A stretch of DNA of 64,000 bases. It comes from a virus. Shown piece after piece: positions 5,076 to 61,786 of the stretch (positions within the stretch are counted from its first letter, which is position 1; each line of letters opens with the position of its first letter). The stretch is from IMG/VR virus record IMGVR_UViG_3300032240_000608, positions 1 to 64,000 of that record; one strand, written 5' to 3'. Both the position numbers and the translations under genes were made by a program. The notes under the pieces were generated by a model. It was not told the DNA's origin. It ran no database searches and saw nothing but the letters and a program-made list of their open reading frames with translations.

Positions 5076-5180
5076 ATGGCATCATCCCTCTTTAAACATT
5101 CTGCAGTCATCAAACTTGCTACCTATATAAAGGAGACTAGAGATGGCAAAATTTTTCTCAACAAAGCATTACGGTCATAA
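5076..5180 (+). CDS. Possible 34-aa leader ORF overlapping queD
   Basis: ATG 5076 follows AGAGGA at a good distance and is open for 34 codons, ending at TAA 5178-5180 inside queD in another frame. It might be a leader peptide coupling translation to queD, or a chance frame. No homology recognised. Confidence 0.3.
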   Translation: MASSLFKHSAVIKLATYIKETRDGKIFLNKALRS

Positions 5181-5592
5181 TATCGGCCTATCAGCAGTAT
5201 TTCGTCAACCTAACGCAGATCACAGTCACTGTCATTTGCTACACGGTTACAGTCTAGCATTCACTTTCACATTTGGTTGTGACACACTAGACAACAAGAA
5301 CTGGGCAGTAGACTTTGGTGGACTCAAACCACTCAAGGCCTGGTTGGAAGATCACTTTGATCATAAGTTAGCATTGGATAAAAATGATCCACATCTAGCT
5401 AAATTCCAAGAACTAGAAAAGTTAGATCTAGCAGAGATCAGAATCTTTGATGGTGTTGGTGCAGAGAAGTTTGCGGAACACGCTTTCAACTTTGCTGATC
5501 AATTGATCAGAGAAAAGACTGATAATCGTTGCTATTGCGTTAGGGTAGAATGTGCAGAACACGGTGCTAACTCGGCTATCTACGAAGGCTAA
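5143..5592 (+). CDS. queD: 6-carboxytetrahydropterin synthase-like QueD
   Basis: QueD/PTPS family enzyme converting 7,8-dihydroneopterin triphosphate to 6-carboxy-5,6,7,8-tetrahydropterin, the second step to preQ0. Visible: H12, C30 and H34 in HSHCHLLHGYS, DFGGLK, DHFDHKLALDKNDP, and VECAEHGANSAIYE at the end. The usual HGH zinc motif is HGY here (Y36 in place of the third zinc His), so metal binding may differ. Length (149 aa) is slightly above bacterial QueD. SD AAGGAG precedes ATG. Works with FolE (56995) and QueE (60935) for DpdA (51383). Confidence 0.88.
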   Translation: MAKFFSTKHYGHNIGLSAVFRQPNADHSHCHLLHGYSLAFTFTFGCDTLDNKNWAVDFGGLKPLKAWLEDHFDHKLALDKNDPHLAKFQELEKLDLAEIRIFDGVGAEKFAEHAFNFADQLIREKTDNRCYCVRVECAEHGANSAIYEG

Positions 5593-9010: not shown

Positions 9011-12000
9011 ATGGCAAGAAAAATAATTGATATTGGTACAGTTGGTAATGACGGTACAGGCGATAGTATTCGCGATTCGTTTAATAAAGTTAACGACAAC
9101 TTCTTAGAACTATATAGTTCCCTAGGATTAGGTGATAAACTTAAATTCACAGGACTTTCAGATGTTCCAACATCTTATATTGGTCAAGAAGGCGCAGTAC
9201 TCACAGTTAATCAAACTACAACCGGACTTAAATTTAAACAGATTACTCCAGGTGTAGGTATAACGATTGATTCAACTACTAATCCAAATGAGATCAAGCT
9301 AAATGCTGTGTTCTCGCAGATTTCAGCAGACAAGGCTCCGCAACTTGGTGGCGACCTTAGTGCTACATCGGGTGGCATTAGTTATCGAATTAAAGATCTT
9401 TCAACACCGATTTTACCTAGTGAAGCAGCAAGTAAAGGATATGTTGATACTAAAATCTCAAGAGCTGGCGTAAATGCTATAGATCCAGCTACAAATACTA
9501 CTAACTCTGCGTTTGGACGTATGACTGGTCCATTGATACTAAGTCGTAATCCACAACCAGAAGATGACACTGTCTTTGACGGCTTGATCGCTGCTACTAA
9601 ATCATATGTTGATAATGCAGCGTTTGGCTCTGTTGCTAACTTGTATGTTGCTACTTCTGGACAAGATGCTCGTGTTGGTGTATCCGACGAACTACAAGGC
9701 CGTGCATTAGCCTACGCCTATCGCACAGTTGAAGCAGCACTAAGACGTGCTGAAGAATTAATGCTAGAGTCTCGAGTTGAAATTGGACCTTACAAAAAGA
9801 TTTTAACATATAGCGGTGGCACTGGTGTTTGTACTCTAAGCAACATTGGTATTTCTGGCGAATCGGGAAGTGGCTTTAGTGCAGCGGCATTAATGAGTGT
9901 CGATGTTGCGGTACTAAGTTCTCCTGGTGCTAACTATCAAGTTAACGATGTCATTACGATTTCGGGAGGCACAGTTGCTACTAATGGTCAAAGAGCCACT
10001 ATCAAGGTATTAAGTACTACAGCAAGTCCTGGAGCTATTCTTACTTTTTCAATTATTTCTACAGGTGTATACTCAGCTATCCCAGGAAATCTTGCGGTAA
10101 CAACTACCAGCAACAGTGCCTATGGCTCTGGTGCAAAATTTGATTTAACCTATAAAGTTAACAATGTAAAAATTAATAACCCAGGTACAGGCTATGGACT
10201 AGTATCTGTTCGTATTACAGGAGGTGGTGGCTCAGGTGCATTTGGTGTTGCCAACGTTCTAGGTGGTACTATCACTGGTGTTAGTATTACAGATCCTGGT
10301 TCGGGGTTCACATCTGTTCCAACAGTTGTAGCCAATCTTCCTACATTCGCTATCTATACAGCAGGCCTAAAGACTGATTTTACTGGTAACTATGCTTCAA
10401 ACACTCTGCAGGCTGCTGCTACTAGAGATATCCGACCTGGTCTTTATCTTCGTGGTGAAACATCTGGTGCGTTAGCACAGATCCTAACACATACCGGAGA
10501 TCTCGATGCACAAGGCAATGAGTTATTTGACGTTGATATTGTCTATGGTAACTTTGTTATCGGCGAAACTATTTCATACGGTGACGTTACTAAAAACACT
10601 CAGATCACTGTGTTCATCGAAAGCGGGATCTATGAAGAAAACTATCCATTAAAAGTACCACAAAACGTTTCGATTATCGGAGATGAATTCCGACGTGTTA
10701 TTATTAAACCAAGATCAGGGGCTAGTTCAAGTCCGTGGGCATTCCAAAACTTTAGAAGAGATTTAACTGTTGACGGTCTTACTACTGCTACAACATTATT
10801 CGGTAACCACTACTTAACAAATCCCATTCAGCCAGTCTATCCTATTGTTGTTAACGCAGGAAAGTATAATGCGGCTGCGCAATTACTGTATCTTAATAAA
10901 TTTTTCATCCAGGAAGAACTAATCGGTTGGATTGATTATCAAATAAGTCACCGCATCGAACCGTTCGATGGCCAATTTACATTTAACACTGTAACCTATA
11001 ATAAAAATATAGGACTAGTTATAGAAGCAGTTATGGCAGATCTAGTATTAGGCAGCAGCTATCTGTCAACTACTTTTGCAACAGCATACCTAAGATCATA
11101 CAATCTAGCCGATACTACCGCTCAGAAACCTCAAATAATCGCAGGTATTAACAAAGCTAAAAGTTTAATATTAAACACAATATACGGGTCTACAACTTAT
11201 GTAAGTTCGTCAACTAAGATTACTGCATCATTTAAAATTATCACCGATGTCATTCAGTCTTTATCATACCCAACAGCTACATTAACCTATGCGAATCCAT
11301 CGAGTATCACTACTGACGGAACTCGTGCTAAAAATATATTAGTAGCTAACAGATCGTTTATAAGAGATGAAGTTATCGGATATCTTACCGACTCTGGAAT
11401 TGCTGCAGGTATCGCTAGTTATGATCCAGTAGTGTTTAGTCGAAATATTGGATATCTAGTCGACGCAATAGTATTTGATCTAGTCTACGGTGGAACCAGC
11501 CAGTCTATTTTATATGGACAATCTTTTTATAAAACCGATGGAACAATTAATAACGTATGGGAAAGAAATTCGTTCGCTCCGGCCCTTACACAACTTAAAG
11601 TTATTATTCCACAGGTTATATCAAATGGTACAAGCTGGACTGGTAAATCTAGTTCAAACACCACAAGCCAGGTTATAAATTTAACTGCGGCTTCAAGTAG
11701 CGGTGGATCGGCAACAACACTAAATGCAGCATTTGATATTGTAAAAGATATTCTTGCTAATGGCATTAATGCAACTTCAACAATATCTCCAGTAATTCCT
11801 ACATATACAGACGGAGTCAATGCTCCGTTAAATGCTGATCGTCTCACAACACTTACTGCAAAATCAACTATACAAGCACAGACGCTTGCATTCTTAAATG
11901 CTGAATATAATTCAGGAACATTCAGTTATAATTCTAAATTGTGTAAGAGAGATGCAGGACTAATTGTTGATGCTCTAGTATTCGATCTTCGATACGGCGG

Positions 12001-15000
12001 CTATAACAGAACGGTATCTGCAGCATTAAAATACTTCCAGAGTGCTAGTGCAATAATTGCAATCACTACACAGTTAGATGAAACAGTGGCAGCAATGCTA
12101 AAGATTGCCAGCTTGGCAAGAAGTGTAATACAGAATCAATCAGCAGGGGTTGGTGGTCCGTTCACTGGAGGATACTATCAAGAGTATGGCCAACAGATAA
12201 TTGATCAAGCCTATATCTACGAAACAGGCACTCCAGCAATTATCACTAACTTGATAAATGCAGTTATTGATATTGTTAGTGGTTCGACATCGTTGAATTT
12301 ACCAAAGGACAATAACAAGATAGACGTATTCTTGTGTAACGATGCTGTGATGATCAGAAAGGTTAGCGCACAGGGCCAAGGCGGCTTTATGATGGTACTA
12401 GATCCACAAGGTCAGATCCTCGCTAAATCTCCGTACTGTCAGGAATCAGCATCCTTTATCGGATCAACTGGCCGTAAACAGTTTGCTGGTGGTATGTTCG
12501 TTGACGGGTTTGCAGGTAACTTAGAATTTAGAATGTCGTCTGCGGCCAGCACAACTAAAATTTCTGTTACTGGTTTAGGACGTTTCCCTAACTTACCAGC
12601 ATCTGTAATTGTTTCTGACAGCGTGTATCGACTAAACTATGTTAGAGATTTTGTATACGGACCAGCAGGTACTTTTAGTTATGACCAAACAGCATTTTCA
12701 AACGACATTGGCAGAATTGTTAATGCAGCATTAGACGATCTAATCTTTGGAACAAACTACCGCTCAATCACTGTAGGTCTATCTTATCTACAAAGTTCTA
12801 CAATTCAACAGCAACGAGTTCAAACAATAGCAGGTATTAATAAAGCTAAGGAATATGTTCTAGCATTAATATCTAACGGAACAGAGAAGACAGCGATCGA
12901 TGCCTCAATGTCAATTGTTACAACTATTATTAATAGTAGTGCCGCAAGTAGTGCTCCAGCACTAACATATACCAATTCTCTCAACACAGCATCTGGCATT
13001 ATCAATGGTGCTAGAGAGTTGATTGCCAATAGAGATTTCTTAATTGACGAAGTTATCCAATACATCAATGCTAACCTAAGTCCAGAAGTTGTATCAGGAT
13101 ACAATGAAGCGACACGCCGTGCTGCCATTGGAGTATTGGTTGATGCATTAGCCTTTGACTTGTTCTATGGCGGAAACAGCGCAACCGTCACTGCTGCTAA
13201 ATCCTACTACAACGATTTTGGTATTTCCATTCTTGGTACACAAATCGGACTGGTAGTATCAGCATACACTCGATTAAAAAATATTATCGGATTTGTTATC
13301 CAAGCTACAACTGGATGGACTAAGAATACATCATTGGTACAAAGCACTTCAGCAGGAGCTGGTACTAGTGGAGCTGCTACATCTGTTGGCACACTGGTGC
13401 AAATTGTTATTGATGTTATTAATACTGGGGTTGTTGCTGCACCGTCAACAGTCAATCCAACGTATGCCAATGGTACAAACTACGTTTCATATAGTACAGA
13501 CAAAGCAACGATTGTCGCTGGGTTGAGTACTGTTCAATCAAACGTTATTAAATTTATTAATTCAACCTACGGTGCAGGTGGCAGCTCTGCAACTATTGTA
13601 TTAGATCCATCAACACCGTATATATTTGACGTCGGTCCACAGAACTGTACGATCACTAATGCAAGTCCTGCAGTTATTACGAAAGTAAGCCACAATCTAC
13701 AAGCTGGTGCAACATTGGTGTTTTCATCAACTGGTACACTACCAGCAGGTCTTACAGCTGGACAACGATACTATGTTCTACTAGATGGTCTAGGTGCAAA
13801 CTACTTCCGTGTTACAGATACTATTGGAAGTATTACTCCTGTATCGACAACTTCAGCAGGTTCCGGCACACACATTTACGATCGTATCTATGAAATCTTG
13901 ATGCCTGGTAATCGATCAATGTTGTCAAACGACTTTACACAGATTGCAGACCTAGGCTACGGAGTTATTGCAACTAACGGCGGCTTGACAGAAGCTGTGT
14001 CAATGTTTACATACTACTGCCAAATTAGCTATTACTCAATTAACGGCGGACAGATTCGTTCGATCGCTGGTTCATCGGCACACGGTAGATTTGCTCTAGT
14101 CGCTGAAGGTAGCGATCCTTTAGAAGTTCCAACTCCGACAGACTTGTATTATAATCTATCTCAGGCTATTACCTGTTACTATCCATCTGGTACTTACTCA
14201 AACTCCTCTCAGGGTGTAATTATCTATGTTAACAATTACAGTTACATTCCTTTGCCTAACAGTGAACTTGAGGTCGATCACGGTAGTGGTATTCTTTATC
14301 GTTACCCAGTTAATTCTGCATACACTGGCAGCGATTTACCAAATGGCGTTGCTCGACTAACACTTGGTTCATCAACAGGTGCTACTGGCCTGTCAGGATT
14401 GTACACTTCAGTTCCAGACGGGACAATTATGACTATACGACAAAGTCAGTCATTGATGTTGTCTGGTAACTTATCCGGAGTAACTGTTAGACCGTCAACT
14501 GGTTTAGTCTTTACAGAATCAGCAACAAACGTATATCGTGTTTTACAATTTACAGATTATCTAGATCCAGGTGCACCATATACCTGTACTATCAGTATAG
14601 CTAATCCTGCAGTCATCACTAAAACGAATCACGGACTGTTGGTAAACTATCCTGTTATATTCTCAACAACCGGCGCATTACCTACAGGGCTTACAGCTGG
14701 TCAAACTTATTATGTTCTAGGTACTAATCTAACACAAGACAGCTTTACTGTATCAACACTGAAAGGTGGTGGGGCTATTATAACAACCGCTATCGGGTCT
14801 GGAACACACAAGTATACTCCAACAGGTATTACAACTACCTTATTGAGAGAGAACTACAGCTACATCTATCTAACTGTATACCAACCAAACGATTATTCTG
14901 CGATAGCAACAACTGCTACAGCAACAGCAACAACTACTGCGTCAATGACCGGGTCAAGTATTAGTGGAACTACATTAACTGTAGGAACACTAGCATCTGG

Positions 15001-18000
15001 AACTATTTTATCAGGTATGGTGTTGACCGGTGGCAGCATTATTGCAGGAACATATATTGTTGCTAACATCCCAGGAGTAATTACTGGTACAACAACTTAT
15101 ATTTCATTAACTGGTACTAGTGTTACCGCAGCAGCGACTTATACAGCCGTTGCTGTTAAGTCTACTAGTGGTTCAGGTACTGGTGCAACATTTACCGTTG
15201 TAAAAACTGGTTCAGGTACTAGTTATAACGGCGTTACAACTATCACTGTAGTAAGTGGTGGTACAGGTTATACAGTTGGCGACACTATCACAATTAGTGG
15301 AGCAGTACTGGGTGGGGTTGTAACAACCAACGACTTAACATTCACTCTGGCAACAAGTGTAAACAGTACATCATATTGGACTGTGAGTGCAAGTCAGACA
15401 CAAACATCAACTACTATCACCGGTACAAGTAATCAATTTACAGTAGGGACTTCGACTGGTGCGGTAGTCAACCAACCGATTAAGTTTGGTATTAGCACAC
15501 AGGCATCTATTTCAGATGGCCCTACTGCATATATTACTGTAGGTACTACTGATGGTATGGTTCTTAATATGCCGTTGGTATTCACTGTTACTAGTGGATC
15601 AGCATTTGGTGGACTAGTCAGCGGAACAACTTACTATGTTAAATCGATTATCAGCGGAACACAAATTACACTAAGTGGAACGTCGGGTGGAACTACTCTT
15701 TCTGTAACGTCGGGCTCGGGCTCAATGACCGTGGTTACTGGTGGAACTATTCCAGGCGGTGTGACTGCCGGAACAACGTATTATATTTCTGCTATTCCAT
15801 CTTCGACCACTGTGTCAATTAGTCTGTATCAGCGTATTGATTTAACAACTACTGCAACCACAGTAACATCAGCAACATTGCCAGGTTGTACAATCGTTGG
15901 CACAACACTAACTGTTGGCAGCGGAGTTACTGGCACTATCACAGCTGGTATGGTACTGTCGGGAGGCACCGTAGTAGCAGGTACTTACATTATTTCTAAC
16001 ATAAGTGGTCTTGGTGACGGCAGTACTTGGTTAATTAGTACTAGCCAAACAGTGTCAACTCCTACAAGTGTTACAGCTACAGGTTATAACGTTAACATTG
16101 GTAGCACCACTGTGGTTCAGAGAGGACAACCGATTGCATTTACAGGTACCACATTTGGTAATCTTGTAAGTGGTACTGAGTATTATATTGCTGCTATTCC
16201 AACATCATCAACTGTGGTGTTAAGCTCAACGGCCGCGATGACTGCGGTATTTGTTGTTACAGCAGCGACTGGTACAGTATCAACTTCTACTAAATTTAAA
16301 CAGTACGCAGTTTCAACAACTTCAGGATCTATATCAACTGTTATCAGCGGTGGCATCACAGCCAACGTAACTAGCGGCGGCACCGCAGGAATATTTACTA
16401 CTCCATACGCACACGGATTTATTGCAGGAGATGTTATTAAAGTTAGTTCTTCTGGAACACTAGCAACCGGTATAGTCAGCAATGCGCATTATTTTGTTAT
16501 TGCAACTAACCTAACATCAACAACATTCTCTGTGTCATTATCCCCCGGCGGTTCAGCAGTTCTAACATCGGGCACACCAACAGGAACATTAGTTGTTGGT
16601 AAAGTAGTTGGAAGAACTGGTGACAAATTTGTTGCGGTAGTTGCACTAGGCCCTTATGACAGAGCAAGAGCTGTTGGATCAGTGTTCAACTTTAAAGGTG
16701 TTGATTACATCATTACACGTTACGATCCAGAAACTGTAACTAATACAGCGTTCGGTCGTGTCTATGTTCAAAGAATAAATCTTACAACAGGCGTTCAATC
16801 CGATACGGGATTTGCAGATAGTGTAGTATCTTATGTTGCATCAGTAACACTAAAAGCTTCAGTACGTAGAGGCAGTTCGAATGCCAACGGTACACTAACA
16901 ATTCGTATTGCGTTGACTCGTGTTACAGGACACGACTTGCTGGACATCGGTACTGGCTCATATGCAGATACAAACTATCCAAACGAAATTTACGGTCCAG
17001 CTGTAAATGCTCGTAACCCGGCAGGTGAAACTGTTGAACGATCAGTAGGTCGTGTGTTCTATGTGACCACTGACCAATACGGTAACTTTAGAGTTGGCCC
17101 GTACTTTAGCGTTGACCAAGGTACTGGTAAGGTATCATTCTCTGCAGCGATTGCGTTGAGTAACTTAGACGGTCTAGGATTTAAACGCGGTGTTCCAATT
17201 AGTGAATTCTCAACAGACTCATCATTTGCCAACAATGCAACTGACACTGTGCCAACACAGAACGCAACACGTATCTATTTAGAACGTAGATTGGGATTAA
17301 CGCACACAGGTGCTGCCGTTGATAACGGACAATTGATTCCGATTAATACAGGCGGTTTCCTAGCGTTGAACGGTTCCTTGAAGATGAAGGGCAATGCAGA
17401 CTTTAATAACAACAAGATTATTAATCTGTCAAATCCAACAGATCCTCAAGATGCTGTTAACCTAAGAAGCCTAACACTAGGCAACATTACTGGATTTACA
17501 TTTACTAATCCATCAAATAGTCAAATTGCCACATTCAATAGCAGTGGCTTTGTTGTTAACTCATCAATGGGTGGCGATGCTACCGTGTCGCTAAGTGGAA
17601 ATACTCTAACACTTACAATATCAGCAAGTGCCATTGTAAACAGCAAGGTCAGTGCTTCAGCTGCTATCGATCAAAGCAAACTGGCAATGACTGCTGCCGG
17701 CACAAGAACTAACGCCACAGGTATTACCCAAGCAGAAAGAGGCCTTGCAAGTTTTGACGATACACAATTTACAGTAACCAATGGTTGGGTAACTGTTAAA
17801 GATAACGGCTTACAGCTACCTAAGATCGCACAAATTGCAGCATATAGTGTTGTAGGTAATAATAGCAATAGTACAGCTAATGTAACAGCAGTTCCATATG
17901 CATCTATTGTTGATACAGGTGCTGGTATTAAGAAATCGCAATACAGTTCAACTGGCTTCTTGAGAAGAACTAACTCATCAGTTAGTGGCGGTACATTGGA

Positions 18001-18802
18001 TGCTGACTATTCGATCGTTGAGATGTCAGCAAACTCCGATGCCAGCAAATTAGTTGTTCGTGACTCCAACGGTGATTTCGCTGCTAGAGTTATTAGCGTT
18101 GATCAAATTAAAGTTGACACTAACTTGGCCATCGATACATCAGCGGCGGCCAGCGGCGGTTATGTAAGATTCTATGGTTGGAACAGTGTAGGCGGAGTTT
18201 TAGTACAGTCTGGTACACTTGCTGCCGATAACAAAACACTGTACTGGAATGATACACATCAGTTCAAGTCTAAGGATGGCGCAACTGATGCACCAATTAC
18301 TGCATCTTCGATACAGGTAACCGCAATTACTGCCGGCGGCACAACAGCTACTGGTACTATTACTGGACGTTGGACATTGACAGGTACTTCACCGAACGAA
18401 TCAAGATTGCAATCGACTTACTCAGCTGACTTAGCAGAATACTATGAAGGCGACAAAGAGTATGAAGTAGGCACAGTTGTAGTATTCGGCGGGGACAAAG
18501 AAGTTACTATTGAAGGTAAACTGGCTAACACAAGAGTTGCAGGTGTGGTGTCTGCAACAGCAGCATTTGCTATGTATGATGCTTGCCCAGGATTAAAAAA
18601 TCTTATAGCACTACAAGGTCGTGTTCCAGTTAAAGTAATTGGAAAAATACAAAAAGGAGATCTGCTAGTGACATCTAAAATTCCAGGTGTTGCTATATCA
18701 GCTGGCGAAGATGCCAAGACCGGTACAGTGATCGGTAAAGCATTAGAAACATATGATTCGGATCATATAGGTACAATTGAAGTAGCAGTAGGGAGATCAT
18801 AA
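9011..18802 (+). CDS. Giant tail-fibre/baseplate adhesion protein (3263 aa)
   Basis: Largest gene of the window. Residues 13-36 form the NDGTGDSIRDSFNKVNDNF docking motif shared with the gene at 20794. A single-stranded beta-helix-like part (ESGIYEENYPLKVPQNVSII, then GDEFRRVIIKP) lies near residues 535-565. Residues about 600-1520 hold several copies of a helical repeat built around (L/I)VDA...DL.YGG. Residues about 1540-2500 are Ser/Thr/Gly-rich with a motif (AVITK..H.L...LPxGLTAGxxYYVL) recurring near 1541, 1853 and, in looser form, 2457. The C-terminus from about 3138 (SADLAEYYEGD ... RVPVKVIGKIQKGDLLVTS) resembles terminal chaperone or self-processing domains of phage fibres. Confidence 0.88.
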   Translation: MARKIIDIGTVGNDGTGDSIRDSFNKVNDNFLELYSSLGLGDKLKFTGLSDVPTSYIGQEGAVLTVNQTTTGLKFKQITPGVGITIDSTTNPNEIKLNAVFSQISADKAPQLGGDLSATSGGISYRIKDLSTPILPSEAASKGYVDTKISRAGVNAIDPATNTTNSAFGRMTGPLILSRNPQPEDDTVFDGLIAATKSYVDNAAFGSVANLYVATSGQDARVGVSDELQGRALAYAYRTVEAALRRAEELMLESRVEIGPYKKILTYSGGTGVCTLSNIGISGESGSGFSAAALMSVDVAVLSSPGANYQVNDVITISGGTVATNGQRATIKVLSTTASPGAILTFSIISTGVYSAIPGNLAVTTTSNSAYGSGAKFDLTYKVNNVKINNPGTGYGLVSVRITGGGGSGAFGVANVLGGTITGVSITDPGSGFTSVPTVVANLPTFAIYTAGLKTDFTGNYASNTLQAAATRDIRPGLYLRGETSGALAQILTHTGDLDAQGNELFDVDIVYGNFVIGETISYGDVTKNTQITVFIESGIYEENYPLKVPQNVSIIGDEFRRVIIKPRSGASSSPWAFQNFRRDLTVDGLTTATTLFGNHYLTNPIQPVYPIVVNAGKYNAAAQLLYLNKFFIQEELIGWIDYQISHRIEPFDGQFTFNTVTYNKNIGLVIEAVMADLVLGSSYLSTTFATAYLRSYNLADTTAQKPQIIAGINKAKSLILNTIYGSTTYVSSSTKITASFKIITDVIQSLSYPTATLTYANPSSITTDGTRAKNILVANRSFIRDEVIGYLTDSGIAAGIASYDPVVFSRNIGYLVDAIVFDLVYGGTSQSILYGQSFYKTDGTINNVWERNSFAPALTQLKVIIPQVISNGTSWTGKSSSNTTSQVINLTAASSSGGSATTLNAAFDIVKDILANGINATSTISPVIPTYTDGVNAPLNADRLTTLTAKSTIQAQTLAFLNAEYNSGTFSYNSKLCKRDAGLIVDALVFDLRYGGYNRTVSAALKYFQSASAIIAITTQLDETVAAMLKIASLARSVIQNQSAGVGGPFTGGYYQEYGQQIIDQAYIYETGTPAIITNLINAVIDIVSGSTSLNLPKDNNKIDVFLCNDAVMIRKVSAQGQGGFMMVLDPQGQILAKSPYCQESASFIGSTGRKQFAGGMFVDGFAGNLEFRMSSAASTTKISVTGLGRFPNLPASVIVSDSVYRLNYVRDFVYGPAGTFSYDQTAFSNDIGRIVNAALDDLIFGTNYRSITVGLSYLQSSTIQQQRVQTIAGINKAKEYVLALISNGTEKTAIDASMSIVTTIINSSAASSAPALTYTNSLNTASGIINGARELIANRDFLIDEVIQYINANLSPEVVSGYNEATRRAAIGVLVDALAFDLFYGGNSATVTAAKSYYNDFGISILGTQIGLVVSAYTRLKNIIGFVIQATTGWTKNTSLVQSTSAGAGTSGAATSVGTLVQIVIDVINTGVVAAPSTVNPTYANGTNYVSYSTDKATIVAGLSTVQSNVIKFINSTYGAGGSSATIVLDPSTPYIFDVGPQNCTITNASPAVITKVSHNLQAGATLVFSSTGTLPAGLTAGQRYYVLLDGLGANYFRVTDTIGSITPVSTTSAGSGTHIYDRIYEILMPGNRSMLSNDFTQIADLGYGVIATNGGLTEAVSMFTYYCQISYYSINGGQIRSIAGSSAHGRFALVAEGSDPLEVPTPTDLYYNLSQAITCYYPSGTYSNSSQGVIIYVNNYSYIPLPNSELEVDHGSGILYRYPVNSAYTGSDLPNGVARLTLGSSTGATGLSGLYTSVPDGTIMTIRQSQSLMLSGNLSGVTVRPSTGLVFTESATNVYRVLQFTDYLDPGAPYTCTISIANPAVITKTNHGLLVNYPVIFSTTGALPTGLTAGQTYYVLGTNLTQDSFTVSTLKGGGAIITTAIGSGTHKYTPTGITTTLLRENYSYIYLTVYQPNDYSAIATTATATATTTASMTGSSISGTTLTVGTLASGTILSGMVLTGGSIIAGTYIVANIPGVITGTTTYISLTGTSVTAAATYTAVAVKSTSGSGTGATFTVVKTGSGTSYNGVTTITVVSGGTGYTVGDTITISGAVLGGVVTTNDLTFTLATSVNSTSYWTVSASQTQTSTTITGTSNQFTVGTSTGAVVNQPIKFGISTQASISDGPTAYITVGTTDGMVLNMPLVFTVTSGSAFGGLVSGTTYYVKSIISGTQITLSGTSGGTTLSVTSGSGSMTVVTGGTIPGGVTAGTTYYISAIPSSTTVSISLYQRIDLTTTATTVTSATLPGCTIVGTTLTVGSGVTGTITAGMVLSGGTVVAGTYIISNISGLGDGSTWLISTSQTVSTPTSVTATGYNVNIGSTTVVQRGQPIAFTGTTFGNLVSGTEYYIAAIPTSSTVVLSSTAAMTAVFVVTAATGTVSTSTKFKQYAVSTTSGSISTVISGGITANVTSGGTAGIFTTPYAHGFIAGDVIKVSSSGTLATGIVSNAHYFVIATNLTSTTFSVSLSPGGSAVLTSGTPTGTLVVGKVVGRTGDKFVAVVALGPYDRARAVGSVFNFKGVDYIITRYDPETVTNTAFGRVYVQRINLTTGVQSDTGFADSVVSYVASVTLKASVRRGSSNANGTLTIRIALTRVTGHDLLDIGTGSYADTNYPNEIYGPAVNARNPAGETVERSVGRVFYVTTDQYGNFRVGPYFSVDQGTGKVSFSAAIALSNLDGLGFKRGVPISEFSTDSSFANNATDTVPTQNATRIYLERRLGLTHTGAAVDNGQLIPINTGGFLALNGSLKMKGNADFNNNKIINLSNPTDPQDAVNLRSLTLGNITGFTFTNPSNSQIATFNSSGFVVNSSMGGDATVSLSGNTLTLTISASAIVNSKVSASAAIDQSKLAMTAAGTRTNATGITQAERGLASFDDTQFTVTNGWVTVKDNGLQLPKIAQIAAYSVVGNNSNSTANVTAVPYASIVDTGAGIKKSQYSSTGFLRRTNSSVSGGTLDADYSIVEMSANSDASKLVVRDSNGDFAARVISVDQIKVDTNLAIDTSAAASGGYVRFYGWNSVGGVLVQSGTLAADNKTLYWNDTHQFKSKDGATDAPITASSIQVTAITAGGTTATGTITGRWTLTGTSPNESRLQSTYSADLAEYYEGDKEYEVGTVVVFGGDKEVTIEGKLANTRVAGVVSATAAFAMYDACPGLKNLIALQGRVPVKVIGKIQKGDLLVTSKIPGVAISAGEDAKTGTVIGKALETYDSDHIGTIEVAVGRS

Positions 18803-43709: not shown

Positions 43710-45575
43710 ATGCGAGCAAGTGATTTAAACTTGCCAGACGGAATGGAAGTCTATGTTGATATGGACGGAGTGGTTGCCGATTTCTTTACCGAGTATGCAA
43801 AACTAGCAGGGGTCACACACGGAAACTATCGAGATATTCCTCCTGCTAAAGTAGATCCTACACTAGATAAAATGGTAGGTACAGATTTCTTTGCACGGCT
43901 ACCAAAGTTTCCTACAGCAGATAAACTGCTACAGATAGTAGTAGATGCTGCCGGTTCATATAATATTTGCTCTAGCCCACTGCGTGGGGATCACGAAGGA
44001 TCAGAAAAATACAAAAACATCTGGATTAAGAAACATCTTAATCCGCAACCTAAACATATCTATATCGTTGCTAACAAAGCCAAGTATGCTAAAAGCAGCA
44101 ATGGTATGCCTAATGTATTAATCGACGATCGTGGCAGTAATATCTCAGCTTGGGAAGCCGCGGGCGGCATTGGTATCAAGTATCAGGCAGACGAAGACAG
44201 TCTTAAAGTTATCCTTGAAGGACTTAAACGTGCTCGTCGTGTTGCCAAAGGTGAACAAGAACACGAGCCACAAAAATTGCAGAGTCTAGATCGAGGCAAG
44301 ATGATTGCTGTACACACTAGTGGTGATAAAGACGAAAGTATTAATTTAGAAAATTTTGCTGATGGTAAGAAACCGGGACGTAAAGGACTTGCTAAACGTT
44401 CAGGAGTTAATACCAAAGCCAGCGTAAGTAGTCTACGTAAGACAGCCAAACACAGCTCGGGTGAGAAAGCACGTATGGCTCATTGGCTGGCTAATATGAA
44501 AGCTGGTAGGGCGAAGGCTAAAAATGAAGGTGAGGGAGATCCCGAAGGATTGCCGCATCTAACCAAAACACTGCTAAAACATATTGTTGACGAGGTCGGC
44601 ACAGAAGGCGCACACGCTATTATCAAAAGCCTAACGTGGGGTGACGGTGCTGCTAAAGAATTCTTACATTTGATTGTAAAAGACCTAGAACAGAATCTCG
44701 ATCATAATGATATCGACGAAGCAGGTTTTTTAAGTTTTCTTAAAACTGAACCTCCTAAAAAGAAATGGAATCCTGCTAAAGATTCTAGAGTTGTTAGTAA
44801 TAAGAAAGATGACAACGCTTGGATTAAACTCTTGTTAGATAAGCATCGTAGAGGTATTGAACTAACTGATCGCGAATGGGATTCTATTAAGCAATGGAAA
44901 CTAAAACGTGATATGCAAGGCGAGCAGTTTGAAGAAGGTTGGAAAGATATCGCTGCTGCTGGCGCACTTGCTACAGGACTGGCATTTGGTCACGCAGGCG
45001 ATGCAGAAGCTAAACCTAAGAATCACGAAAGACCAGCTGTTACACAACAGGCCAAAGCACCTGCTAAGAAAGTAAGTCCTGCAGAAGCAGAAGCTATCCT
45101 AAAAAAGGTAGCAACAAAAGCTGGCATACAGGGAACAGAGCTTGCGCAGTTTATGGCACAATGCCAACACGAAACACTCAACTTTACCGAGATGAAAGAG
45201 ATAGGTGGCAGTTTAGATTTCAAGAAATACGATCCAAAACACGCACCTAGGAAAGCAAAGATACTAGGAAACACAAAAACAGGTGACGGTTCACGCTATG
45301 CCGGTCGTGGGTTTATACAACTTACTGGCCGTGAAAACTATAAGAAAGCGGGTGATGCTCTAGGACTACCGTTAGAAAAACATCCGGAAATGGTTGAAAA
45401 TCCGATAACTGCTGCCAAGGTAGCAGTATGGTACTGGAAGAACCGAGTACAGGCCAAAGTGGCTAATTTCAACGATACAGCCGAAGTCACCAAACATATT
45501 AACCCTGCCCTGCGTGGTTTAGACAGTAGACAGTCAGCATTTAAAGATTACAAGCTACAGATAGCACAACGGTAA
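43710..45575 (+). CDS. Fusion: HAD nucleotidase + basic module + GH19 wall hydrolase (621 aa)
   Basis: Residues 12-170: HAD-type 5'(3')-nucleotidase with D17-M-D19-G-V-V-ADF, CSSPLRG and IDDRGSN. Residues 210-272: basic module GKKPGRKGLAKRSGVNTKAS, then GEKARMAHWLANMKAG. Residues 285-405: helical part. Residues about 410-435: hydrophobic signal-like stretch DIAAAGALATGLAFGHAGDA. Residues 455-621: GH19 domain with catalytic E488 (QCQHETLNF) and GRGFIQLTGRENY. A nucleotide enzyme and a wall hydrolase in one chain is unusual; packaged and injected multi-task protein is one explanation. Confidence 0.82.
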   Translation: MRASDLNLPDGMEVYVDMDGVVADFFTEYAKLAGVTHGNYRDIPPAKVDPTLDKMVGTDFFARLPKFPTADKLLQIVVDAAGSYNICSSPLRGDHEGSEKYKNIWIKKHLNPQPKHIYIVANKAKYAKSSNGMPNVLIDDRGSNISAWEAAGGIGIKYQADEDSLKVILEGLKRARRVAKGEQEHEPQKLQSLDRGKMIAVHTSGDKDESINLENFADGKKPGRKGLAKRSGVNTKASVSSLRKTAKHSSGEKARMAHWLANMKAGRAKAKNEGEGDPEGLPHLTKTLLKHIVDEVGTEGAHAIIKSLTWGDGAAKEFLHLIVKDLEQNLDHNDIDEAGFLSFLKTEPPKKKWNPAKDSRVVSNKKDDNAWIKLLLDKHRRGIELTDREWDSIKQWKLKRDMQGEQFEEGWKDIAAAGALATGLAFGHAGDAEAKPKNHERPAVTQQAKAPAKKVSPAEAEAILKKVATKAGIQGTELAQFMAQCQHETLNFTEMKEIGGSLDFKKYDPKHAPRKAKILGNTKTGDGSRYAGRGFIQLTGRENYKKAGDALGLPLEKHPEMVENPITAAKVAVWYWKNRVQAKVANFNDTAEVTKHINPALRGLDSRQSAFKDYKLQIAQR

Positions 45576-46958: not shown

Positions 46959-47248
46959 TTATTGATGTTTTTAAACCTACTGTAGATTGGATCCGAGATG
47001 ACTACAATACTCATCCCTTTCGGTTTTTTATTGAATTACTTGCTTGGGCTGTGTCTATTGGGTGCAGTATCACTATGGCCGTCACCGTGCCTAATCCGCC
47101 ACTACTCGCGTTATATCCTGTTTGGATTAGTGGCTGTGCTATGTATGCTTGGGCTGCTTATACTAGGAAATCATTTGGGATGTTGGCTAACTACATCCTG
47201 TTGACCACTATCGATACCTTTGGTTTGATTAGGATGTTACTTAATTGA
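46955..47248 (+). CDS. Inner-membrane protein, 97 aa
   Basis: About three hydrophobic segments (residues 23-42, 47-67, 74-95) with DWIRDDYNTHPFRF at the start and YTRKSFGMLANYILLTTID late. Small proteins of this pattern are common in T4-like aquatic phages; role unknown, some resemblance to transporter fragments such as PnuC is too weak to use. Overlaps both neighbours by 4 bases. Confidence 0.7.
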   Translation: MIIDVFKPTVDWIRDDYNTHPFRFFIELLAWAVSIGCSITMAVTVPNPPLLALYPVWISGCAMYAWAAYTRKSFGMLANYILLTTIDTFGLIRMLLN

Positions 47249-47820
47249 AAACACATTATGTATTTCCCACACCGTTTTATGAATTTGATCTATCAGATTT
47301 GACTGAACAGTTGTTGGAGATGATCGCTGAAGAGCCAAACTCATTAAGTCCGAACTATCCAAGTATTACACAGACTAATGATCAAATTCTACACGAAAAT
47401 GAAAAGTGGAAATTTCTTAAAGATCGAATAGAAGACTGTTTGTTAGAAATACAAAAGACGGACGGATATGATCCTGCATTTGGTCATTTACGTATCAGCA
47501 GATTATGGGCTAATATTTCATTAAAGAGTTCTGGTTCTGAACATACACAGCATCGACATCCTATGAGTTTGTTAAGTGGCATTCTGTATCTTACAGAGGG
47601 ATCTTCAACAAAGTTTATGGATCCCTGCTATGCTAGAAGTTTGTCAGGTGTTGAAATTCCAAATGATAAATTGTTTGATCATTTATTGATTCCACCTCAG
47701 CCAGGGAAAATGATTGTTTTCCCCAGTTACGTACAACATCTAACAATGCCGCATTACAGTCAAGATAATCATCGAATAACAATGGCGTGGAACAGTTTGC
47801 CTGAAAGAATGGTGCCTTGA
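47245..47820 (+). CDS. 2OG-Fe(II) oxygenase-like protein (191 aa)
   Basis: Double-stranded beta-helix pattern of the phage 2OG oxygenases: THYVFPTPFYEFDL start, SEHTQHRHPMSLLSGILYLT (metal His), KFMDPCYAR, then GKMIVFPSYVQHLTMPHYSQ (distal His) and NHRITMAWN with Arg for 2-oxoglutarate. Such enzymes hydroxylate proteins or small molecules; many T4-like phages carry several. TTG 47245 is the only start consistent with overlap with the previous stop. Confidence 0.72.
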   Translation: MKTHYVFPTPFYEFDLSDLTEQLLEMIAEEPNSLSPNYPSITQTNDQILHENEKWKFLKDRIEDCLLEIQKTDGYDPAFGHLRISRLWANISLKSSGSEHTQHRHPMSLLSGILYLTEGSSTKFMDPCYARSLSGVEIPNDKLFDHLLIPPQPGKMIVFPSYVQHLTMPHYSQDNHRITMAWNSLPERMVP

Positions 47821-47854
47821 AGCAAAAAGAGATATATAAAGTGTAAAAGGTACA

Positions 47855-47900
47855 GCGAGCCATAAATCGCACAATTGGTATTTGCAAGCCGTAAATTGCA
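47855..47900 (+). promoter_or_regulatory. Two tandem hairpins with near-identical 8-base loops before gene 43 (translational operator candidate)
   Basis: Hairpin 1: GCGA (47855-47858), loop GCCATAAA, TCGC (47867-47870). Hairpin 2: TGCAA (47883-47887), loop GCCGTAAA (47888-47895), TTGCA (47896-47900), directly against the TAGGAG ribosome site. The stems differ while the loops are conserved, as expected for a protein-bound RNA. T4 gp43 represses its own translation by binding a 5-bp, 8-base-loop hairpin at the same place. Confidence 0.78.
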
Positions 47901-47912
47901 TAGGAGAAAAAT

Positions 47913-50643: not shown

Positions 50644-51381
50644 ATGAAAGATATTTTACAAGACATCGTAAGCCATACACAGAACCTAGGCTTCTTGACA
50701 ACTGTCAAGGTCACAGGCACAGAAGAAAAGACAACCATTAACTCAATGGCAGATGACCGTTCAGTTATTATGGAAGCTGAGACATCAGCACCATACTCGG
50801 ATATGCTAGGCGTATTTGGTATGCCACAACTTAACAAATTGAAGTATTTGTTAGACGGCGCTGAGTATAAGGATGATGCAAAGATTTCTATTACTACAGC
50901 AGAACGCAATGGCGAAGTATTGCCAGTGGGTATTCACTTCGAAAACAAAGACGGCGACTTTAAAAACGACTATCGTTTTATGCAAACAGAAATTATCAAT
51001 GAAAAGATGAAAACTGTTAAGTTCCGTGGTGTTAAGTGGGATGTAGAGATTGAACCAAGTGTTGCCGCAGTAACACGTTTCAATTTCCAAGCAGGTGCTA
51101 ATAATGAACATCCAACATTCTTGGCAAAGACAGAAGGCGGCAATTTGAAGTTTATCTTTGGTGATGCTTCAACACACGGCGGTGAGTTTATTTTTGCACA
51201 GAACATTGCAGGTAAACTAGATCGCGGTTGGACTTGGCCAGTGCTGCCAATCTTGAGTATCCTTAAGATTGCAGATGTAAACAACACAAAGATGTCATTG
51301 TCAAACGAAGGTGCTATTCAAATTACTCTAGATAGCGGATTGGCAACTTACAAATATATCATTCCAGCACAAGCGGCCTAA
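50644..51381 (+). CDS. 45: Sliding clamp, T4 gp45-like (245 aa)
   Basis: Ring-shaped processivity factor for gp43 and mobile enhancer of late transcription in T4. KYLLDGAEYKDDAKISIT and the C-terminal KMSLSNEGAIQITLDSGLAT block are typical of gp45 proteins of T4-like aquatic phages; length close to T4 (228 aa). CGGAGA site. Directly followed by dpdA. Confidence 0.92.
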   Translation: MKDILQDIVSHTQNLGFLTTVKVTGTEEKTTINSMADDRSVIMEAETSAPYSDMLGVFGMPQLNKLKYLLDGAEYKDDAKISITTAERNGEVLPVGIHFENKDGDFKNDYRFMQTEIINEKMKTVKFRGVKWDVEIEPSVAAVTRFNFQAGANNEHPTFLAKTEGGNLKFIFGDASTHGGEFIFAQNIAGKLDRGWTWPVLPILSILKIADVNNTKMSLSNEGAIQITLDSGLATYKYIIPAQAA

Positions 51382-51382
51382 A

Positions 51383-52993
51383 ATGAAACCATCAGTTAAC
51401 CTAACACCATTACAGAAAGACTATGCTGTCTATTTGCCAGCTATCAGTTCTTTCTATTCCACGTATGTGGCAAAACAACGACTAGAAGAATTTGTTCCTA
51501 AGGATCGTATTCCTGCAGGATTCGATCAAGGTATCGAAGGGATGAACTTCTTAAATGCAGATCAAGGATACTTTACCTACAAGTATGCTCTATACTCAGC
51601 AGGACACGCACAACTTGACTTGGAAAAGTCAATGGAACAGGAGTCGATGATCCAACAGCGTGACCGACCTAACACAATGATCTTAGGTGACTCAGGTGGA
51701 TATCAGATTGGTAAGGGTGTTCTTAAGTTTGACTGGTTGAACTTCGAAGGTGCCGAAGCTAACAAAACTCGTAAAAAGATTCTTGAGTGGTTGGAGTTAA
51801 CTGCTGATTGGTCAATGATGTTGGACGTTCCGACTTGGGCCTGTGATCATATTCACAGTCCTAAAACAGGTTTGAAAACATTCGAAGATTGTCTAGAAAA
51901 GACACGCTTCAATAACGACTACTTCTTACAAAATCGTCTAGGTCAAACTAAATGGCTTAACGTTCTACAAGGTGGTGACTGGGATACTGCTGAAAAGTGG
52001 TACCGTGGTGTTGTGGAATTTAGTGATCCTAAAGGAAAATATGCCGGTAAGGAAGCCGAAGGATGGGCATTTGGTGGTGCTAATATGTGTAAGATGGACA
52101 TCACACTTAAACGTCTAATGATAATGCGTGACGAAGGAATGCTTACAGGCAAGAACTGGATTCACTTCTTAGGTACTGCACAGTTAGACTGGTCCTGCTA
52201 CCTAACACAAATTCAACGTCAAATACGTAAGCATATCAATCCAGAACTTACTATCAGCTTTGACTGTGCAAGCCCGTTCATTGCTACTGCTCACGGACTT
52301 GTTTATACAAATGCACAACATACTAACAAGCGTTGGTCAGTTATTATGGACAAGGCTCCAGATAACAAAGCACTTTCAGGACGTTATGATATTCCGTTTC
52401 CGTTTGAAAGTGAATTTGCAAGCCGATTAACAATGGGCGATATTGCATACTATGACTACGGTGTTCGTAAGTCCGATGCCGAACTAGGCGAAGTTAAATT
52501 TAATCATTTAAATCCAGAACACTATCATACAGTTCCAAGACTTAATAAACTAGGCAAGATTCCAAACAAAACCAGTTGGGATAGTTTCAGTTATGCTCTA
52601 ATGATGGGCCATAATGTTGAATGTCATATCAAAGCAGTACAACGTGCTCAACAGTTAATGGATATCGAATGTGCAAGATTTAAGCCAGACTGGCGTATGA
52701 AGAGCATTGAAGGTAAGAAAGAAATTGAATTTAGCGATTGGGTTCCAAATAAGATTCTTTACTTCGGTACATTCGTTGAAGAACTATTCAATACTAAAAC
52801 TAAAGAAGAAGCGTTTGATATGATCGAGACTGCTACTCAGTTCCTGAAATCATTAGAAGGTTCACGCTTACAAGGTGGACCTGCTGCAAATACATTCGGT
52901 AGCTTATTTGATTTCGACGATGGCAAGAAAGCTGGTGAAATTGATTTCAGCAATCCAGACGATGACGAGTTGAACAGTTTAGTTGTAGAATAA
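51383..52993 (+). CDS. dpdA: DpdA, DNA 7-deazaguanine transglycosylase (536 aa)
   Basis: tRNA-guanine transglycosylase relative that exchanges guanine in DNA for a 7-deazaguanine. Landmarks: MILGDSGGYQIGKGVLKFDW (catalytic/binding Asp region), MMLDVPTWAC, NVLQGGDWDTAEKWYRGVVE, GWAFGGANMCKMD and LGTAQLDWSCYLT. Length exceeds tRNA Tgt (about 375 aa), as in phage DpdA, and no RNA-binding PUA domain is seen. With QueD, FolE and QueE it makes a near-complete modification route. Confidence 0.85.
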   Translation: MKPSVNLTPLQKDYAVYLPAISSFYSTYVAKQRLEEFVPKDRIPAGFDQGIEGMNFLNADQGYFTYKYALYSAGHAQLDLEKSMEQESMIQQRDRPNTMILGDSGGYQIGKGVLKFDWLNFEGAEANKTRKKILEWLELTADWSMMLDVPTWACDHIHSPKTGLKTFEDCLEKTRFNNDYFLQNRLGQTKWLNVLQGGDWDTAEKWYRGVVEFSDPKGKYAGKEAEGWAFGGANMCKMDITLKRLMIMRDEGMLTGKNWIHFLGTAQLDWSCYLTQIQRQIRKHINPELTISFDCASPFIATAHGLVYTNAQHTNKRWSVIMDKAPDNKALSGRYDIPFPFESEFASRLTMGDIAYYDYGVRKSDAELGEVKFNHLNPEHYHTVPRLNKLGKIPNKTSWDSFSYALMMGHNVECHIKAVQRAQQLMDIECARFKPDWRMKSIEGKKEIEFSDWVPNKILYFGTFVEELFNTKTKEEAFDMIETATQFLKSLEGSRLQGGPAANTFGSLFDFDDGKKAGEIDFSNPDDDELNSLVVE

Positions 52994-56994: not shown

Positions 56995-57759
56995 TTGACA
57001 ACATTTACATCAGAAGATCTTCAAAGCGTACTTAAAGGCGCAGATGATATGAGCGACAAAGGTTACGAAGAAGGCTATCTAGGCGATGCTATTCGTTTTA
57101 AAATGAAACGTGATCGTAAACGTTTCTGGGCTGGCGATAATATCAGCGATTACGTTAGTGAAGCAGATAAAGAAATACTTATTGACGAAGCAACAGAAGC
57201 GTTTGAACGAGTATTGGATACATTGCTTATTGATCGTGAGAATGATCCAAACAGCAAAGGTACAGCCCGTCGACTGGCTAAAATGTACTTTAATGAAATA
57301 ATGGCAGGACGATATGAATCAGCACCAGACGTAACAGCATTTCCAAATGATTCGGAGGACCGCTACGAAGGTATGTTGGTTGTCCGTAGTGAGCTTCGCA
57401 GTATGTGTAGTCATCATCACCAACCCGTTGTTGGCGTTGCTTATATTGGTCTTATTGCGGCTCAGAAACTCATCGGACTTAGCAAGTATACGAGGATCGC
57501 TCAGTGGTGTGCCCGTAGAGGTACTCTCCAGGAGGAACTTTGTAATGACATTGCTAGGGAAATCGAACGTGCAACAGGTGCAAAAGATCTAGGTGTTTAC
57601 ATTCAAGCAGTACACGGTTGCTGTGAGAATCGCGGCATTATGGCGCATTCATCTTTAACACAGACAACTGTTCTTAAAGGTGCTTTCAAAGACGATACAA
57701 GTACAAAGAAAGAATTCTTTGATAACATTAAAATGCAACAAGAGTTTGCCCCACGTTAA
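56995..57759 (+). CDS. folE: GTP cyclohydrolase I FolE (254 aa)
   Basis: Makes 7,8-dihydroneopterin triphosphate from GTP, first step towards preQ0. Zinc site Cys and His in SMCSHHHQPVVG, substrate blocks KLIGLSKYTRIAQWCARR and QEELCNDIAREIE, and third zinc Cys in AVHGCCENRGIMAHSS. N-terminal 80 residues are longer than in E. coli. Start TTG 56995 follows CGGAGA; the next in-frame ATG has no ribosome site. Confidence 0.92.
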   Translation: MTTFTSEDLQSVLKGADDMSDKGYEEGYLGDAIRFKMKRDRKRFWAGDNISDYVSEADKEILIDEATEAFERVLDTLLIDRENDPNSKGTARRLAKMYFNEIMAGRYESAPDVTAFPNDSEDRYEGMLVVRSELRSMCSHHHQPVVGVAYIGLIAAQKLIGLSKYTRIAQWCARRGTLQEELCNDIAREIERATGAKDLGVYIQAVHGCCENRGIMAHSSLTQTTVLKGAFKDDTSTKKEFFDNIKMQQEFAPR

Positions 57760-60934: not shown

Positions 60935-61786
60935 ATGAGCAAAATTAAAATCGCAGAGCTGTTTTACAGCATACAAGGTGAAGGACGCTATATGGGTGTG
61001 CCTTCTGTTTTCTTGCGTACATTTGGCTGTAACTTTAAATGTGCAGGCTTTGGTATGCCACGTGGCGAACTTAGTGCAGAAGTCGAAGTTATTGCAGAAC
61101 GTGTTGCAGAATTTAAAGATTACAATGAACTGCCATTAGTATCAACTGGCTGTGACAGTTATGCTAGTTGGGATCCTCGATTTAAAGACCTAAGTCCAAT
61201 GCTAACTAGTGATGCTATTGCAGATCGTATTATGGAAATTCTCCCGCACAACGAATGGCAGGATGAACATCTAGTTATTACAGGCGGCGAACCTTTGCTA
61301 GGTTGGCAACGTGCTTATCCAGATTTGTTAGATCATCCTAAGATGGCGGGCTTGAAAGAGATTACATTTGAAACAAATGGTACTCAAAAACTAAGTAAAG
61401 AGTTTAAACAATACTTGCTAGACTGGCAATGCAAAGAAGATATGTGGCGTCAGATTACATTTTCAGTAAGTGCTAAACTGCCTTGCAGTGGTGAGAAGTG
61501 GGAAGAAGCTATTTTGCCAGAAGTGGTTTGTGAGTATGAAGATTTCGGTACCGTATATTTAAAATTTGTCATAGCAACAGAGGAAGACTTTGCAGATGTA
61601 GAATGTGCTGTTGCCGCTTATCGCAAAGCAGGATTTAAAGGACACGTTTATCTAATGCCAGTAGGTGGTGTAGAAAGTGTTTACGCACTAAACAATAAGA
61701 ACGTGGCATTGTTGGCAATGAAACACGGCTTACGTTATAGTGACCGTTTGCAAGTGCCGTTATTTAAAAATGAGTGGGGAACCTAA
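60935..61786 (+). CDS. queE: 7-carboxy-7-deazaguanine synthase QueE (283 aa)
   Basis: Radical SAM enzyme: ELFYSIQGEGRYMGVPSVFL is the QueE signature, then C32-x3-C36 and, after an insertion of 36 residues, C73 in TGCDSYASW, so the third cluster cysteine is displaced compared with CX3CX2C or CX14CX2C types. ITGGEPLL is the GGE/SAM motif. Needs a [4Fe-4S] cluster, which fits the phage Fe-S genes. Longer than cellular QueE (about 220 aa). Confidence 0.9.
   Translation: MSKIKIAELFYSIQGEGRYMGVPSVFLRTFGCNFKCAGFGMPRGELSAEVEVIAERVAEFKDYNELPLVSTGCDSYASWDPRFKDLSPMLTSDAIADRIMEILPHNEWQDEHLVITGGEPLLGWQRAYPDLLDHPKMAGLKEITFETNGTQKLSKEFKQYLLDWQCKEDMWRQITFSVSAKLPCSGEKWEEAILPEVVCEYEDFGTVYLKFVIATEEDFADVECAVAAYRKAGFKGHVYLMPVGGVESVYALNNKNVALLAMKHGLRYSDRLQVPLFKNEWGT

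Follow-up and report, generated by a model that had tools for sequence, protein, structure and literature searches.

What kind of element stands before the DNA polymerase gene of an uncultured phage, and what it might do there, was the question raised by a 64,000-nucleotide stretch of viral DNA (positions 1 to 64,000 of the IMG/VR record IMGVR_UViG_3300032240_000608; hereafter the window), which covers nearly the whole 65-kb record. A first-pass annotation had described two tandem hairpins with an almost fixed 8-base loop ahead of a DNA polymerase gene, and had likened them to a doubled form of the hairpin through which phage T4 gp43 represses itself. That observation proved correct and understated. 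Judged from sequence comparison, each unit is predicted to be a compact H-type pseudoknot, in which bases of the hairpin loop pair with a strand outside the hairpin and both stems covary; the conservation, stem covariation, pseudoknot-type co-variation, position and single-gene association of the doubled element are established here on the same comparative footing.

Both hairpins are present in the window exactly where they had been placed (Table 1), with the loop GCCATAAA in the first unit (H1) and GCCGTAAA in the second (H2), and the second does end at the ribosome site, its last base (47900) being followed by a Shine-Dalgarno sequence. In each unit the hairpin stem is called S2, the pairing between the loop and the upstream strand S1, and the connecting segments L1 and L3. 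Apart from these two elements, a descriptor scan of the window returned one chance-level match in a coding region and nothing else. The evidence for the hairpins from the window alone is weak; folding by unit gave z = -2.74 for hairpin 1 and z = -0.49 for hairpin 2, and the string GCCRTAAAT occurs twice against 1.2 occurrences expected. Once relatives are added, the hairpins are, in comparative terms, far beyond chance.

Hundreds of uncultured relatives, with polymerases 63-92% identical, keep both hairpins at the RNA level in their leaders. Loop conservation and stem covariation in related phages, which the first-pass annotation had put forward as the check on its proposal, were both found. 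In the nearest 80 IMG/VR relatives (polymerase 85-92% identical), the two hairpins are retained with changed stems and a loop of the form GCC-N-N-A-A-R, and many H1 stems contain one bulged base. The claim that the stems differ and still pair was borne out in a MAFFT alignment of 67 non-redundant leaders (polymerases mostly 69-92% identical), where 98.5% of the H2 stem cells are paired, 75 of them double-change cells, and the covariation of 0.556 was reached by none of 500 shuffles (0.166 +/- 0.019). A cross-clade set of 36 units gave 97.6% paired and a covariation of 0.816 versus 0.272. The least biased test of stem pairing is a pattern in which three stem positions were left free (TTTG...GCC..AAA...CA plus a Shine-Dalgarno sequence); scanning IMG/VR with it yielded 200 occurrences, 48 of them distinct, and the three free positions were all paired in 48 of 48. 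Generally, S2 is 4-7 base pairs long and free in sequence, and each unit takes up 22-26 nucleotides with few invariant unpaired bases.

The upstream strand follows the loop. GGU or GGC precedes every unit of the window's group (AGU or AGC in a few H1s), usually 6-8 nucleotides before the loop GCC, and units with a GCU loop, found in the group around relative L226 and in scattered H1s (e.g., L114, L170 and L174), have AGU or AGC as the upstream triplet. When hairpins were located independently of the upstream strand, GGY lay upstream of all 168 GCC loops and AGY upstream of 41 of 43 GCU loops, the two exceptions being unrelated hairpins. With stem-verified anchors, the H2 table holds 267 GCC/GGY units (one of which also has AGY nearby), 52 GCU/AGY, one ACU/AGU and one ACC/GGU, and no discordant unit. 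Most members have U-G as the third S1 pair; ACC/GGU and ACU/AGU make it U-A, and GGC makes it C-G. In a set of 26 diverse units, all S1 positions pair (100%), and six double changes from G-C to A-U are seen. Longer S1 helices with changes in the flanks occur in H1 of the L226 group (AGUC:GACU and UGUC:GACA) and in H1 of L392 (GGUC:GACC), and S1 reaches at least 4 base pairs in 21 of 67 cases, compared with 6.2 in loop shuffles (maximum 14). On the polymerase tree, independent pairs changing on both sides number two for H2 and four for H1, all concordant with none opposite, and one further H1 pair changes on one side only. A generic hairpin finder for H1 took no account of bulges; it placed many H1s wrongly and its S1 signal was weak (54% versus 32% shuffled), and better-anchored parses were used in its place.

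The geometry also fits a pseudoknot, as L1 is mostly 1-3 nucleotides over S2, L2 is absent, and an A-rich L3 of 5-6 nucleotides spans a 3-base-pair S1. The case for S1 is thus made by concordance, by several independent events and by geometry together, and no single significance test carries it. If each unit is an H-type pseudoknot, the 8-base loop would consist of a pairing segment followed by an A-rich crossing strand. The loop reported at first is indeed conserved in relatives, but it is better given as GCC-N-N-A-A-R with the GCC paired, and because the GCC itself pairs, only about five of its bases are free. Likewise, the doubling and the position before a gp43-like polymerase were confirmed, while the pairing of each loop with an upstream GGT (47849-47851 and 47877-47879) had been missed, as had the lack of a close relationship between the phage and T4.

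Table 1. Coordinates of the tandem element, the polymerase gene and other features of the window (CM, covariance model).
Feature	Position	Strand	Basis or remark
Pseudoknot 1 (H1)	47849..47870	+	sequence; stem and S1 covariation in relatives; CM match, E=0.002
H1 S1, GGT with GCC	47849-47851, 47859-47861	+	
H1 L1, ACA	47852-47854	+	
H1 S2, GCGA with TCGC	47855-47858, 47867-47870	+	
H1 L3, ATAAA	47862-47866	+	
H1 hairpin loop	47859-47866	+	
Pseudoknot 2 (H2)	47877..47900	+	CM match, E=1.2e-5, top match in window
H2 S1, GGT with GCC	47877-47879, 47888-47890	+	
H2 L1, ATT	47880-47882	+	
H2 S2, TGCAA with TTGCA	47883-47887, 47896-47900	+	
H2 L3, GTAAA	47891-47895	+	
H2 hairpin loop	47888-47895	+	
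Shine-Dalgarno, AGGAGA	47902..47907	+	sequence; immediately 3' of pseudoknot 2
Family B (gp43-like) DNA polymerase gene, 889 amino acids	47913..50582	+	PHROG 262, E=1e-197; Pfam DNA_pol_B; ATG at 47913
Next gene downstream	50644..51381	+	sliding clamp by annotation of its phage Phosso counterpart
2OG-Fe(II) (2-oxoglutarate) oxygenase gene	47245..47820	+	inserted between membrane-like gene and pseudoknots
Membrane-like protein gene, 97 amino acids	46955-47248		usual upstream neighbour
QueD-like gene	5143-5592		
3263-amino-acid open reading frame	9011-18802		
621-amino-acid protein	43710-45575		
536-amino-acid protein	51383-52993		
GTP-cyclohydrolase-like gene	56995-57759		
QueE-like gene	60935-61786		

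The element is bound to one gene and to one place before it. All 200 of the Shine-Dalgarno-bearing pattern occurrences sit before relatives of the window polymerase, and in 210 relatives 7-21 nucleotides (mode 15) separate the 3' end of S2 from the end of the start codon. In the window record and ten other large records, CM matches below E 0.01 are confined to the leader of the polymerase gene; in the 353-kb record of relative L180 the only two matches are the tandem pair before the polymerase. In several more distant records the CM gave no matches or chance-level ones only, the leader of the clamp-like gene in the window holds neither a pseudoknot nor a CM match, and a scan of bacterial genomes for the H2 pattern with a Shine-Dalgarno sequence found none.

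The membrane-like gene is the immediate upstream neighbour of the element in most relatives, and where genes are inserted between it and the polymerase gene, such as the oxygenase gene here, the element usually stays beside the polymerase. In five relatives (L097, L128, L371, L374 and L387), a small Cys-rich open reading frame of about 50-63 amino acids (410-600 on the minus strand in L128) stands between the two; its stop is at, near or overlapping the polymerase start, the element heads the pair, and the small frame is a coupled partner of the polymerase gene. In one record (G004) the tandem pair lies about 200 nucleotides upstream, before an inserted small open reading frame. Moreover, a TAAATA or TAAGTA motif mostly begins 15-18 nucleotides upstream of the first element, a position suggesting that the transcript might start at the first pseudoknot. 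In the window as a whole, ATAAATA occurs 10 times on the plus strand and once on the minus strand, often just before gene starts (e.g., 5023, 31463, 34093, 39222, 39600 and 45762), and is likely a T4-late-type promoter motif.

By analogy with T4, we favour, at a probability of roughly 0.6, a translational operator in two copies by means of which the gp43-like polymerase would repress its own synthesis. The mRNA leader would fold into two tandem H-type pseudoknots, with S1 formed as GGY:GCC, AGY:GCU or an extended helix and with no base between the stems, the second ending at the ribosome binding site. Free polymerase in excess over its DNA substrate might then bind both copies, perhaps cooperatively, and block ribosome entry, so that the replicase would tune its own production in the manner of T4 gp43 and its one simple hairpin; two sites could yield cooperativity or a graded response. 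That the polymerase is the ligand and that repression is the effect is what we infer from the precedent of T4, RB69 and RB49 (PMC3014915), from the specificity for a single gene and from the fact that RegA was not detected. No RegA was found in 19 records, which are possibly incomplete, by a search that was positive in T4 and RB49. The site is also unlike one controlled by RegA in that it is structured and belongs to a single gene rather than to many targets.

Another phage protein (the sliding clamp, a single-strand binding protein or an unknown regulator) might bind the operator, in which case the polymerase would be controlled but not by itself. The clamp gene lies directly downstream of the polymerase gene, and in T4 a pseudoknot in the gp32 mRNA is a known binding site of gp32 itself (PMC3014915). 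We regard this as unlikely, because a regulator of replication genes should have several targets, but neither the window nor other large contigs yielded a second confident copy ahead of the clamp gene or of any further gene, and RegA, as noted, was not detected. A role without any ligand, in which the pseudoknots protect the mRNA 5' end against nucleases or adjust ribosome loading, would agree with an mRNA 5' end at the first pseudoknot, as the TAAATA/TAAGTA spacing would have it, and with the overlap of the 3' strand of S2 with the Shine-Dalgarno sequence (CGGAG) in the L242 group of relatives. It seems improbable, since the fixed GCC or GCU, the A-rich L3 and the identity of the loop bases exceed what shielding needs, and a general stabiliser should precede other genes as well.

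Slightly less probable again are tandem riboswitches that would couple translation of the polymerase to a small molecule, such as the nucleotide or 7-deazapurine pool. Tiny H-type pseudoknots beside a Shine-Dalgarno sequence have a topology generally known from preQ1-I, the layout is in tandem, and the window carries QueD-, QueE- and GTP-cyclohydrolase-like genes, which suggest a 7-deazaguanine pathway; yet the element stands before the polymerase gene and not before the deazapurine genes, the 22-26 nucleotides of each unit leave little that is both invariant and unpaired, and no Rfam covariance model matched it at the gathering threshold or even at E 5. That the repeats are DNA sites, either operators or promoter parts, is very improbable. 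An AT-rich, promoter-like stretch does adjoin them, but stem sequences vary freely without loss of pairing, G-U pairs occur, the segments have an asymmetric order and the spacing to the start codon stays within a narrow range, all of which disfavour a reading at the DNA level.

Several observations weigh against a self-repressing polymerase or against the structure on which it would act. The minimum free energy of the window leader is unremarkable (z = -0.15), and global folding of the leader was therefore left out of the evidence. S1 is only 3 base pairs long in most members and its independent change events are few; in the tree sign tests, neither H1 nor H2 alone reaches 0.05. In most members of the L242 group, S1 of H1 has at most 2 base pairs, and the first element there (e.g., L448-L485) is another hairpin, GUCGYUC-ACGUUAC-GARC-AUG. 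The element has usually been lost when the membrane-like gene touches or overlaps the start of the polymerase gene; of 38 such cases, 4 match a loose regular expression. L212, L396, L410, L412 and about 30 other relatives are examples of the loss, and such natural losses would be useful for tests of function. Leaders of the isolated jumbo phages Phosso, Hallingskeid, Atu_ph07, PA5oct, SCTP-2, Vibrio 2.275, RaK2 and XacN1 show no visible element; the polymerases of cultured jumbo phages without it are 32-49% identical. The window polymerase is only about 27% identical to T4 gp43, and by this value and the undetected RegA the phage is not a close T4 relative. In addition, some T4-related gp43s do not autoregulate (PMC3014915).

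Among cultured phages in the collection, the best full-length match of the window polymerase is that of Sinorhizobium phage Phosso (49% identity), and the closest solved structure is RB69 gp43 (E=1.5e-63). Contigs carrying relatives reach 374 kb, and the uncultured group carrying the element therefore probably consists of large phages. Elsewhere in the window, the 621-amino-acid protein combines an N-terminal 5'-deoxynucleotidase-like (NT5C) domain with a C-terminal GH19 endolysin, and the giant 3263-amino-acid protein is probably structural. Pfam, PHROGs and NCBIfam gave no family for the 536-amino-acid protein; as a guess, it might be a divergent base-exchange enzyme.

Autoregulation by gp43 is a classic case of a DNA polymerase that also serves as a repressor binding RNA specifically; its operator was reportedly the target of the first SELEX (systematic evolution of ligands by exponential enrichment) experiment. 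To our knowledge, this autocontrol has been seen in a handful of T4 relatives, with a single simple hairpin. If the proposed operator is real, autocontrol by the polymerase is possible with another RNA architecture, doubled and pseudoknotted, across a large group of uncultured phages, and hundreds of natural variants could help tell the bases that are recognised (GCC or GCU with its partner, and the AA of L3) from those that only pair. No description of the element was found in the literature searched, which included few subscription papers and left much of the gp43 literature outside. A 2010 review named gene 32 as the only viral pseudoknot it could cite for translational autoregulation (PMC3014915).

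Three known systems invite comparison, and none coincides with the element. The preQ1-I riboswitch is an H-type pseudoknot of very small size whose A-rich strand lies close to a Shine-Dalgarno sequence. It was compared in fold only, and differs in segment lengths and conserved bases, without Rfam similarity, and the element here is found only before a DNA polymerase gene. The gene 32 pseudoknot of T4 and T2 is likewise H-type, precedes the coding part of a phage replication gene within its leader and serves autogenous translational repression (PMC3014915); it involves another gene and protein, however, and is a single pseudoknot, 67 nucleotides upstream, at which cooperative binding along an AU-rich stretch is nucleated, whereas the two pseudoknots here abut the ribosome site. 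With the gp43 operator of T4, RB69 and RB49, the element shares a structured RNA in the leader of a gp43-like family B polymerase gene, immediately before the ribosome site, specificity for that gene and an 8-base loop, which in T4 is closed by a 5-base-pair stem (AGCCT AATAACTC GGGCT); the RB49 loop contains UAAA (PMC3014915), as do the window loops. It is set apart from the T4 operator proper because one descriptive feature, the single simple hairpin of about 5 base pairs with an 8-base loop bearing UAAC or UAAA, fails here, the first three loop bases being paired although NNAAR (UAAA in the window) is present, and because the defining biochemical feature is only hypothesised. T4, RB69 and RB49 each have one simple hairpin; that of T4 has been described as showing no evidence of a pseudoknot, and none was seen by eye in the polymerase leaders of T4 and RB49. 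In contrast to the T4 system, the uncultured group, in which RegA was not detected and whose polymerase is about 27% identical to that of T4, has two units instead of one, an upstream pairing strand for each, and GCC-NNAAR in place of the T4 loop AAUAACUC.
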